Positions 2,158 through 6,070 of a stretch of DNA of 6,070 bases are shown in pieces (position 1 is the first letter of the stretch; each line of letters starts with the position of its first letter). The notes under the pieces were generated by a model that was not told the origin of the DNA, ran no database searches, and saw nothing but the letters and a program-made list of their open reading frames with translations. A program made the position numbers and the translations under genes. Source of the stretch: an uncultured Collinsella sp. (GTDB taxonomy: Bacteria > Actinomycetota > Coriobacteriia > Coriobacteriales > Coriobacteriaceae); contig CALGZY010000192.1 of the NCBI GenBank assembly GCA_937934355.1, positions 1 through 6,070 of the forward strand, read 5' to 3'.

Positions 2158-4035
2158 ATGCGTTTATATCAGCGAGGCGGACAAATCTATCTTGATCCCG
2201 AGCCTCTCGATGCCGACTCTCTGCGTCGCAATGCTCGCTTTAAGATGACCTGTAGGGCATACGTCAGGTGTGTCGTTAAGGGTCATATTTTGCTCGAAGA
2301 GATCGGCAACTATACAGAGTTCGAAAAGATTGTTGGCAAGCTATCGAAGGTTGCCAGCCGTCTTGGTGTGGCGCTATCGGTCGATGACGATCTTCAGGAC
2401 GGCTTTACACAGATTCGCGAACTTGCCGAGCAACGTTCGCGTTTGGGAAACGAGATCAAGCGCGGCGACCACAAACACGATGCCCATCTCGCAGAGTTCT
2501 CGGAGGTCGTCGATGCCGCCATGGCGCGTCCACTTAAGGATCGCCAGATGCGCGACGCGTTTTTCTTGGCAACGATGGGACGTGCAGGCAACTTCTCGGT
2601 GCCGGGGTCGGGTAAAACGGCGACCGTTCTTGGTGCGTTTGCCTTTTTGGCACAGCGCGGCATGGTCGATCGCATTATGGTCGTGTGCCCAAAAAACGCA
2701 TTTGATTCCTGGGCGACGGAGTGGAGGCTCTGCTTTGGCGATAAGTGGTCACTCAACTTGTTTACAACGCAAGACGATGCTTACCGAAAGCTTGGTAAGT
2801 CTGACCGCCGGAGGTATATTCGCGCTCGTGTGGGCGGTTGCAATTTGCTGCTTGTGAATTACGAGGCGGCTATTGGCGTTGCCGAGGAGCTCAGTAAGGT
2901 CGCTGGAGAGCGTACGCTTTTGGTGTTCGACGAAATCCATCGCGTTAAGCGCGTTGGCGGAAAGCAAGCTAACGCGGCTCTCGTTGTTTCTAAGAGTGCT
3001 CCCTATACGTTTGCCCTGACGGGCACGCCAATTCCTAACGGATATATCGATATTTACAATATGTTGCACATTCTGTATCCGCGGGAGTATGACAACTATT
3101 TTGGCTTTGAGAAAAGCGAGCTCAAAAACGCCGAGGACTCGGACATTGAGCTCGTGAACAACAAGTTGCAGCCATTTTATTGCCGTACGACCAAGGATGA
3201 CCTAGGCGTCCCGAGGGCTGAGCCCGACGAGCTTATCAAGGTGTCGTCTGGCGAGCGTACGAATCTACTGCTCGGCGTTATTAAAAACCGTTACCGTCGC
3301 AACAAGCTGACCTTGATGCTGCGTGTTCTGCAGATGGAAAACGATCCGATCGACCTACTCGAAACGCTTAATCCCGAAGACTATCGTTGGATTATCGAAG
3401 AAGACGAGGAGACCGGCGAGGTCGATGCCGTCGACTACTCCGATAAGATTGTGGGCATGATTCGATCTGCCGGCGCATCGAGCAAACGTGCTCGTTGCTG
3501 CTCTCTGATTGGCGACTTGGTAGCACAGGGACGCTCGGTTATCGTTTGGTGCATTTTCATCAAGAGCATGTCCGATCTTCAGCGCGGTCTGGCTGATATG
3601 GGGATTGAGGCGCGTACGATTAACGGTCAGGATGACCTTGTCTGTCGTTCGGCAGACCTGGATGACTTTAGGGCTGGCAAGTTTCCCGTACTCATTACCA
3701 ATCCTCATACGCTTGCCGAGTCCGTCTCGCTGCATTCGATTTGTCACGATGCCGTGTACTACGAGTACAGCTTTAACCTGGTCCATTTGCTGCAGTCCCG
3801 CGATCGAATCCACCGTTTGGGCCTGCCGCAAGATCAGCAGACAAGGTACTACTACCTTTCGGAAGATTATGACCTTGGAAGGCCCGATCCGTGGTCGCTT
3901 GACGAGGAAATATATACTCGCCTGCGCGAAAAAGAGAACACCATGCTCAGGTGTATTGATTCCGAAATACTCGAGACGCAGCCTACCTCTCAAGAGGATT
4001 TGGATGCTATTTTCGCCGGTTTGTTTGATGACTAG
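2158..4035 (+). CDS. SNF2-family DEAD/DEAH-type helicase/translocase ATPase
   Basis: The protein has 625 residues and should use ATP to translocate on or remodel double-stranded DNA or a bound protein, as SNF2 proteins do. Motifs are in order and intact: motif I (Walker A) 'FSVPGSGKT' at 146-154, motif Ia 'MVVCPKN' at 174-180, motif II (Walker B) 'LLVFDEIH' at 254-261, motif III 'LTGTP' at 287-291, motif IV region 'SVIVWCIF' at 460-467, motif V 'TLAESVSLH' at 518-526 and motif VI 'QSRDRIHRLG' at 546-555. The SNF2-type 'LLQSRDRIHRLG' ending and motif V separate it from other SF2 helicases. The box is DEIH rather than the commoner DEGH or DEAH. About 140 residues precede motif I and match no domain I know. 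The lobes are joined by a long linker (about 300-455) with an acidic stretch 'EEDEETGEVD' at 414-423. No nuclease domain is visible. SNF2 ATPases are frequent in DISARM, BREX and related defence loci; the ParB-like and PglZ neighbours support that role here. Confidence 0.93.
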   Translation: MRLYQRGGQIYLDPEPLDADSLRRNARFKMTCRAYVRCVVKGHILLEEIGNYTEFEKIVGKLSKVASRLGVALSVDDDLQDGFTQIRELAEQRSRLGNEIKRGDHKHDAHLAEFSEVVDAAMARPLKDRQMRDAFFLATMGRAGNFSVPGSGKTATVLGAFAFLAQRGMVDRIMVVCPKNAFDSWATEWRLCFGDKWSLNLFTTQDDAYRKLGKSDRRRYIRARVGGCNLLLVNYEAAIGVAEELSKVAGERTLLVFDEIHRVKRVGGKQANAALVVSKSAPYTFALTGTPIPNGYIDIYNMLHILYPREYDNYFGFEKSELKNAEDSDIELVNNKLQPFYCRTTKDDLGVPRAEPDELIKVSSGERTNLLLGVIKNRYRRNKLTLMLRVLQMENDPIDLLETLNPEDYRWIIEEDEETGEVDAVDYSDKIVGMIRSAGASSKRARCCSLIGDLVAQGRSVIVWCIFIKSMSDLQRGLADMGIEARTINGQDDLVCRSADLDDFRAGKFPVLITNPHTLAESVSLHSICHDAVYYEYSFNLVHLLQSRDRIHRLGLPQDQQTRYYYLSEDYDLGRPDPWSLDEEIYTRLREKENTMLRCIDSEILETQPTSQEDLDAIFAGLFDD

Positions 4036-4050: not shown

Positions 4051-4458
4051 ATGAAGCTTGCAGATATTACATCCGAGCTGCTGCATTTGTTTGCAGGTCA
4101 GGACGCCGATTGCGGAGGTGCCATTGTTGTGTGGCATGATCCGTCCGGTGAATTTGAGGATGTGCTTGCAGATTTGGAGCTGCCGGGCGTCAGCGTTCTC
4201 GTTGATCGCGAGGGTGGTCGGTTTGCTATCAAGCGTAAGCTCAATGGTGACTTGGGCGGTCGTAAGGTGCTTATATATCGTCGCTCCGCGGGGGAGCCGT
4301 CTGGCGATTGGCTGGCGGATGTTGAGGCGCGTTGCGTCCCGTTTGCCGCCGACTATGTTTCTGTGCAGCTACGCGAGATCGGCGCAGTTGATTCGTATGA
4401 GATGCGCGCGGCGCTTGAGTCCCATAAGCCTTTTTTGCCAAGCGCCGCAACGTTATAA
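4051..4458 (+). CDS. pglZ: PglZ type A, N-terminal part up to the frame break (reads as a 135-residue fragment)
   Basis: This is the N-terminal domain of a BREX-1-like PglZ (type A) protein. Family features are 'WHDPSGEFEDVL' at residues 28-39, 'GVSVLVDREGGRFAIKRKL' at 46-64, 'KVLIYRR' at 72-78 and 'DWLADVE' at 86-92. In PglZ-A proteins this domain precedes a helical middle and the phosphatase-like domain. In this frame the last eight residues ('LPSAATL' region) are not family-like, and a TAA closes it at 4456-4458. Shifting by -1 at the T run 4431-4436 restores 'AKRRNVIKLNKLL', the kind of basic helix expected next. The 135-residue product is therefore not a gene of its own but the 5' part of the reading frame that continues at 4434. 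If translated as is, it would lack every catalytic residue. It begins 15 bases after the helicase stop, in the same operon. Confidence 0.85.
   Translation: MKLADITSELLHLFAGQDADCGGAIVVWHDPSGEFEDVLADLELPGVSVLVDREGGRFAIKRKLNGDLGGRKVLIYRRSAGEPSGDWLADVEARCVPFAADYVSVQLREIGAVDSYEMRAALESHKPFLPSAATL
4431..4437 (+). other. Frame break in pglZ at a T6 tract, matching the -1 slippery heptamer T_TTT_TTG
   Basis: Frame 1 reads CCT TTT TTG across this site. The phase fits the X_XXY_YYZ pattern exactly, so a -1 slip would pair both tRNAs on TTT TTT and move translation into frame 3, where pglZ continues. The zero-frame stop is 19 bases downstream. I see no strong stimulator: only a 5-bp pairing GCAAC (4447-4451) with GTTGC (4469-4473), or a 6-bp one, CGCAAC (4446-4451) with GTTGCG (4497-4502), and no convincing Shine-Dalgarno-like sequence at the right distance upstream. 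A single missing T (T6 instead of T7), through sequencing error, mutation or slipped-strand phase variation, explains the data equally well. Confidence 0.8.
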
Positions 4459-6070
4459 AGCTCAATAAGTTGCTACATTCATCGAGGGAAGTCGCTGTTG
4501 CGACCGTCGATGAGCTTGAGCTTGGCATTTTGGCTGTCTGCTTGGGTGTCAGCGAACTCGATCCCGCGGCAATCGTATCAGGCTATTTGGCGCTCCTGCA
4601 TGAGGGCAATGCTGATCAGGTGGTTGTCCTACTTGCTGAATATGAGATGAATGGCTATTTCTGCGAGCTCATTCGTCATTGGTGTGGTTTTGAGGGGAAC
4701 GCGCTCGAGCTATCTCGTGTTCCCGAGTTGCTGGTCCACGTGTTGCTCACCGCCTGCTCGCGGTCAATGACGGGTGGATGTCTGGACGCGCTGTCGGGAC
4801 GTTTCTCTTCCCAGGCTGTTCATGCCGCGTTCTGCCGCGCATGCGTTGATTATTGGGTTCGTGGCGGTAATCGTCTATTGCTGTTGAGTATGACAACGGC
4901 GGTTGAGCGTGAGCTTGAGCTTGGAAAGATACTCGCTGGCGTTGGTCTTGACTGTATTGCAGGAGCCGACGTCTTTCCCTGCATCGATGCCACCATTCTG
5001 CGCATTCTGTTTGAGCGGGTGCGTCTGTCTGTGGATGCTGCTGATGAGGTTTTGTCGGCCGTCGCCTCTCGTCGCGGATCGCTTTGGTATGAGGAACTTG
5101 CCTGCTATTATCGCGGCGTTTCGGCTGCAGCTCATATGCAGCGTTTTTATCGCGACCATGTAGAAGGTTTTGCGGGCATGGGGGCTTTGGCCCTTTGGGG
5201 TTCTTATGCCAGCGATTTTTATCGCATGGACGCTTGGTACCGTGAGCTGGTGACAGAGTTCGCCGGTGCCTTTAGAGCGGGGGAGTACGAGCTCGATGAA
5301 GACTTCCGCGCCTGCTTTGAGTCGATGGAAGCTTTGTATAAAGGCTGGTTTCTTAAGGAGCTCTCTCGCCGTTGGGCGAGTGCGTCGGGCGATACATTGG
5401 GCTTGCAGGGATATGTGAAAGGTATTCCGCGTCAGGTTGATTTTGATCTGAGCTACGTTGAACCTGCGAATCGCCGCGGAAAGCGTATTTGGGTCATCGT
5501 ATCTGATGCTTTGCGCTATGAGGTTGCTGCAGAACTCGCCGAGCGTCTTGAGCGCGAGACAAAGGGTCAGTGCGAGCTTGGCGCCGTGCAAGGCGTGTTT
5601 CCTTCGATAACCAGATGCGGTATGGCTGCCCTGTTGCCTCATGGAACGATGCGTTACGAGGCATGCGGAGAGGCAGGATCGGGCTTCGGCGTGCTTGTTG
5701 ATGGGGGGCGCGTCGATACTATCGAATCTCGCCAAAAGGTGATTGGCGAGCATTATGAGGGTGCTGTTGCGGTTCGCTATGACCGTTTTGTCGGCGAGAT
5801 GGACCGTGCCGAACGCAAGAAAGCCGTAGGAGACGCGAATGTCGTCTACATCTATCACGATCTCATTGATGCCATTGGAGACAAGGCCGCAACCGAGCGC
5901 AGGGCGTTTCATGCCTGCGATGAAACAATTGACGAGTTATCGGTGCTGGTCAAGCTCATCGTTCGTGAGTTTATGTCGTCTCGAATCGTCATTACGGCAG
6001 ATCATGGGTTTCTGTACACCGCAGAGCCGCTTGCCGAATATGATCATACGAGTGTTGCGGACGTGGCGGG
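4434..6070 (+). CDS. pglZ: PglZ type A, main part with the phosphatase-like domain, frame-shifted and cut by the right edge
   Basis: This frame is open for 545 codons to the window edge and carries the diagnostic PglZ/alkaline-phosphatase-superfamily motifs. Numbered on the joined protein, they are 'WVIVSDALRYE' at about 481-491 (metal-binding Asp), 'PSITRCGMAALLPHG' at about 518-532 (the Ser/Thr region that holds the nucleophile in this superfamily), 'YIYHDLIDAIGD' at about 600-611, and 'TADHGFLYT' at about 649-657 (metal-binding Asp and His). The middle (about 130-470) is helical. PglZ is the signature protein of BREX and Pgl phage defence, presumed to be a metal-dependent phosphatase or nuclease that works in a complex. 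Joined across the T tract, about 673 residues are visible. From memory, type A members are near 850, so roughly the last fifth lies beyond the window. The first in-frame ATG (4647) has no good ribosome binding site, so separate translation is unlikely. Function depends on whether the frame break is real. Confidence 0.87.

Follow-up and report, generated by a model that had tools for sequence, protein, structure and literature searches.

The window, by which we mean the whole stretch of DNA analysed (6070 nt), was compared with its nearest relative among those examined, Collinsella aerofaciens D40t1 (L001), which is 95.5% identical over the whole window; from this match the host would be a Collinsella aerofaciens-like bacterium. 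The features discussed below are the following:

3-926: 3' part of a regulator-like gene, by comparison with L001
931-2154: ParB-like gene
2158-4035: SNF2-type helicase gene (PF00176)
4051-6070 (window end): about the first three quarters of pglZ
4051-4458, + strand: 5' part of pglZ, read in frame 1 as 135 aa, of which residues 1-125 follow the native frame and the end is out of frame
4408-4448, + strand: perfect 10-bp inverted repeat (4408-4417 / 4439-4448) with a 21-nt loop, enclosing the break; also in L001
4426-4427, + strand: A tract with a one-base length difference from the intact L001 gene; the native frame is lost here
4428-4458, + strand: overlap of the two open frames, 31 nt
4431-4437, + strand: T_TTT_TTG, put in -1 phase by the break upstream of it; the intact L001 gene also has this T6
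4437-6070, + strand: rest of pglZ, read in frame 3 for 544 codons and running off the window; BREX-1 PglZ type A

The ORF at 931-2154, for which no Pfam and no PADLOC matches were found, is taken to be ParB-like from its resemblance. Searches of the window gave no Rfam matches at gathering thresholds and no plasmid matches in 'near' mode. The frame-3 part of pglZ alone (4437-6070) scored 314.5 bits with TIGR02687, above the curated cut-off of 270.35, and the frame-1 part matched the start of the same profile (positions 16-121) with 47.7 bits. Judged from these scores the broken gene is the type A PglZ of BREX-1 (TIGR02687; PF08665), and the identity assigned in the preliminary description is borne out by a score over the NCBIfam cut-off. 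In L001 the same genes sit behind two PglX pieces. The gene thus resembles BREX-1 PglZ type A in the score of its frame-3 part and in the presence of PglX pieces in the L001 locus, and differs from it in that the frame is broken in the 5' part.

Frame 1 ends with TAA at 4456-4458 and the rest of PglZ is read in frame 3, which is open from 4428 to the window end; the frame break reported in the preliminary description is present. A run of six T (T6, 4431-4436, context CC[T TTT TTG]) does lie in the phase required for -1 slippage, as had also been reported, and forms the sole in-phase X_XXY_YYZ heptamer within the 31-nt overlap. The further claim that the break is exactly at this run did not hold. 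The L001 pglZ is intact (873 aa in one frame, where the window needs two) and has the same CCTTTTTTG, and the sole true indel between the window and L001 in 6070 nt is in the A tract at 4426-4427 (AA/AAA). Two further alignment gaps relative to L001, at 1746 and 1749, offset one another and most plausibly reflect substitutions, and there is no gap inside any of the 18 homopolymer runs of at least 5 bases in the window. Protein comparison agrees with this placement. The best 120 of 2176 protein matches to the frame-3 part were listed, and the sequences of P0001-P0005 were compared: all are 873 aa long, are read in a single frame and are 88-98% identical to the frame-3 part. P0001 shares 533/544 and 120/125 residues with the window and, because residues differ, was treated as a relative rather than the window's own protein. 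Where P0001-P0005 have SH[K/R]AFFAKRR, frame 1 of the window reads SHKPFLPS; since the residues differ, the native frame must be gone by residue 127, before the T run. It is lost 4 bases ahead of T6, and T_TTT_TTG stands in slippery phase because the break upstream of it shifts the frame.

Across the site 47 loci were compared, 46 of which had a PglZ frame by BLASTP. The site is covered by 45 rows, among which L004/L028, L007/L029 and L005/L031 each represent the same gene twice; L027, with a match of 58 residues, and L021, whose match starts no earlier than residue 386, were dropped because they leave the site uncovered. One frame runs through the site in 45/45 covering rows, T6 is present there in 7 (L001 included), and a conserved frame transition was found in 0/45. 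Of the 65 family genomes searched, 20 gave a PglZ match at E <= 1e-20, none with a stop inside the matched stretch. Among these 20, G009, which is the same as L031, changes frame further on, near residue 707-763. The gene concerned (L005:4332-6916 in the L005/L031 pair, residues numbered as in P0001) is a different pglZ, 49% identical to P0001. In viral_contigs a DNA pattern spanning the site had no match, and the protein search gave one PglZ (L048, 33%), aligned as a single tblastn piece over residues 1-834.

With the 135-aa product as query four short proteins were found (P0121-P0124). P0122 (121 aa; 3 sequences on 4 contigs, the longest of 107,545 bases) and P0123 (91 aa) are truncated N-terminal fragments of almost the same protein. 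As judged from the proteins, the end of P0122 is the one expected if two bases were lost from CGCGCG (4405-4410), and that of P0123, which seven tested insertions reproduce, the one expected from a one-base gain near 4314-4319. P0121 (189 aa), in which the frame of the relative is kept through the site, was probably cut by a contig end. No small indel among those tried yielded the tail of P0124, and this protein was not counted as explained. No two of the window, P0122 and P0123 share an inferred break point; the pglZ breaks appear to be scattered, as would be expected for sporadic loss or for errors.

The inverted repeat at 4408-4448 lies inside the coding sequence and is the sole perfect one of at least 10 bp with a loop of at most 40 nt in the window. 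When the window was dinucleotide-shuffled 100 times, 24 of the shuffles held at least one such repeat, and the hairpin is therefore unremarkable by itself. The break at 4426-4427 is in its loop and the loss inferred for P0122 (within 4405-4410) is at its foot, so that two of the three placeable broken N-terminal forms (the window and P0122, not P0123) map in the hairpin or at its foot, a count that is post hoc and based on few forms. One could imagine the hairpin in the pglZ of this lineage as an indel hotspot, where hairpin-assisted replication errors would repeatedly make BREX-off Collinsella alleles without a long simple repeat, but we think this improbable.

The pglZ DNA differs from that of L001 by 2.9% in the 5' part and by 2.5% in the rest. 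The ratio of non-synonymous to synonymous codons relative to L001 was 1:10 before the break and 15:23 after it (Fisher p 0.076), and a higher non-synonymous share after the break would fit relaxed selection. When the 16 amino-acid differences between the window and L001 in pglZ were polarised by P0001-P0005, 3 were found to be window-derived, 8 L001-derived and 5 ambiguous. Because most of the polarised changes are on the L001 branch, relaxed selection in the window is not convincingly indicated, and the lack of a pile-up of changes on the window's branch argues for a break that is either recent or not real. The preliminary description had drawn a similar conclusion, a recent, artefactual or tolerated break, from the lack of decay elsewhere in pglZ, and the polarised changes agree with the first two of these.

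Taken together, the window probably carries a recent one-base deletion allele that inactivates the BREX-1 type A pglZ of a Collinsella aerofaciens-like bacterium, although our confidence in this reading is moderate. Loss of one base from the short A tract at 4426-4427 would shift the frame after codon 125, and translation would stop at 4458, leaving a fragment of 135 aa that lacks the phosphatase domain of PglZ. In intact L001 the T6, which lies four bases downstream, codes for Phe-Phe; in the window it would owe its slippery phase to the shift. The deletion would be real in the cells, and PglZ, hence BREX phage defence, would be inactive. In favour of this reading are the place of the indel, the intact relatives, the same T6 in L001 and the absence of an amino-acid pile-up on the window's branch; against it, the window's own truncated form is missing among the four short proteins found by the 135-aa query. 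The finding is an ordinary one. The likelihoods assigned here to the deletion and to its rivals are a matter of judgement.

The main rival reading, possible if somewhat doubtful, is that a sequencing or assembly error left the contig one base short in the A tract and that the gene is intact in the organism. In favour of such an error are the intact frame in 45/45 covering rows and the lack of a pile-up of changes on the window's branch. Moreover, the loop of the perfect 10-bp inverted repeat contains the break, inverted-repeat structure can also disturb library polymerases, and the window may be a metagenome contig. A three-base tract is, however, an atypical site of error, and no other true indel relative to L001 was found in 6070 nt despite 18 homopolymer runs of at least 5 bases; since these runs contain no gaps, a platform prone to homopolymer errors is disfavoured. 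On the side of an error, the authors of GeneTack, in the excerpt available, expect singleton frameshifts validated by BLASTp to be mostly sequencing errors (PMC3711429). The different break points of P0122 and P0123 fit sporadic loss. A phase-variable switch, in which a reversible change of tract length toggles pglZ, is very unlikely. Another truncated form, P0122, is placed some 20 nt from the break, and the preliminary description had pointed to phase variation of Pgl genes through homopolymer tracts in Streptomyces; this precedent is sound as far as the phenomenon goes, but according to the part of the source available the tract in Streptomyces coelicolor is a G tract, which changed from 8 to 7 G in two strains, and it is in pglX, not in pglZ (PMC4365076). 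The break in the window, on the other hand, is in a tract of 2-3 bases (AA/AAA), not in a long simple repeat and not in the T6, T5, G5 or G6 tracts of pglZ, and the breaks inferred for P0122 and P0123 fall at other points, different from each other. Slippage between T6 and T7 was rejected, as intact L001 has the same T6. The homopolymer switch proposed in the preliminary description is thus left without support, and inspection of reads for a T6/T7 mixture, which it recommended, would be the wrong test for a break located outside T6.

A conserved, programmed -1 frameshift in this lineage of pglZ had also been proposed, to be judged by whether close homologues carry an uninterrupted frame. Its sole support is the slippery heptamer found in the correct phase inside the frame overlap. 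No relative examined shares the break, and conserved recoding is rejected because the homologues cross the site in one frame, with T6 (7 rows) or without it; we consider this explanation virtually excluded. For GeneTack, as described in the excerpt available, a programmed frameshift needs a conserved site in a cluster of at least 5 genes, singletons being indels or errors (PMC3711429). How readily a deletion creates an in-phase heptamer was simulated by removing each distinct single base from the L001 pglZ except in its first 30 and last 300 bases, which gave 1766 cases. TTTTTTG was in phase within the overlap in 268/1766 deletions (15%) and any X_XXY_YYZ in 591/1766 (33%), the median overlap being 127 nt vs 31 nt in the window. 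For overlaps shorter than 40 nt the corresponding counts were 3/105 (TTTTTTG) and 4/105 (any heptamer), and for overlaps of 20-44 nt they were 9/98 and 12/98. The probability of an in-phase heptamer by chance is therefore roughly 4-33%, depending on what is fixed, a mild to moderate coincidence that is insufficient alone to support recoding. There is a slight chance that the allele is truly shifted and adventitiously rescued, some -1 slippage at T_TTT_TTG giving a little full-length PglZ. A -1 slip at the heptamer would return the ribosome to the native frame and could still yield some full-length protein, few simulated deletions with overlaps as short as this left a heptamer in phase, and the 4400-4520 segment folds better than most shuffles (z -2.42, 4/200 shuffles as good). 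The hairpin of this fold (4408-4448), however, begins upstream of the heptamer and spans it rather than follows it, and is thus no ordinary stimulator of the downstream type; folding past the heptamer (4438-4510) is unremarkable (z -1.12, 29/200 shuffles as good), and over all simulated deletions this very heptamer is not rare. Bacterial -1 frameshift genes include dnaX and the transposase genes of the IS3 family, with which the window shares an in-phase X_XXY_YYZ heptamer in a frame overlap; unlike in these genes, the site in the window is not conserved, shows no clear stimulator in the folds computed and its heptamer is not ranked efficient in E. coli. In the available part of a survey in E. 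coli, H_HH.U_UU.Y is given for the U-type motifs that shift efficiently, whereas U_UU.U_UU.G is efficient for a eukaryotic system only and is outside the 18 motifs chosen for >0.10% unstimulated shifting and a negative z-score (PMC4066793); Collinsella is outside that survey.

An inactivating pglZ deletion would have a parallel in the StySA BREX of Salmonella laboratory strains, where, according to the excerpt available, mutations in brxC and pglZ explain the lost restriction and modification; the host is unrelated to that of the window, and the likeness is drawn without regard to the kind of pglZ change (PMC9009780). Streptomyces coelicolor Pgl, as presented in the accessible part of the source, is likewise a Pgl/BREX system with an out-of-frame core gene, but there it is a G tract of pglX that varies, here a three-base A tract of pglZ without signs of switching (PMC4365076). 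By title or beginning of abstract, none of the BREX literature found describes a frameshifted pglZ as recoding, and no paper relevant to BREX in Collinsella was seen by title among the matches listed. The case calls for caution, as a break beside a slippery-looking run can mimic recoding until an intact relative locates the indel. If the allele is real, it would add to the cases in which a gut commensal has sporadically lost a core gene of BREX. In Streptomyces, PglX is toxic when functional PglZ is lacking (PMC4365076, available excerpt), and the state of pglX, which is outside the window, would therefore be worth knowing in such strains.

Some observations were made on the neighbouring genes. 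The ParB-like gene (931-2154) differs from L001 by 9.8% at the DNA level vs 2.5-4.1% in its neighbours, as if it had been replaced by recombination or had evolved faster. The regulator-like gene at 3-926 corresponds to the 3' part of L001:2534-4489, which encodes a protein of 651 aa; in it, two winged-helix stretches of the OmpR type (PF00486) precede a short one similar to the PglZ N-terminus (PADLOC PglZ, 20.8 bits, residues 244-339). PglX is encoded as two ORFs in L001 (1-2501) and also in L002, L004, L005 and L006: the first part ends near ...W(D/N)F(K/R)R and the C-terminal part is a separate ORF (L001 1527-2501), to which rows in 20 loci (at least 2 duplicates) are 69-85% identical and that in L034 62%. 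In Firmicutes-type loci such as L009 and L010 both PglX parts are in one ORF. The ORFs between the two parts are variable, L001 having one of 211 aa with a sub-threshold HEPN match and L004 several, including a DrmD/DpdE-like helicase, an arrangement suggesting that there may be a fixed cargo site within pglX.
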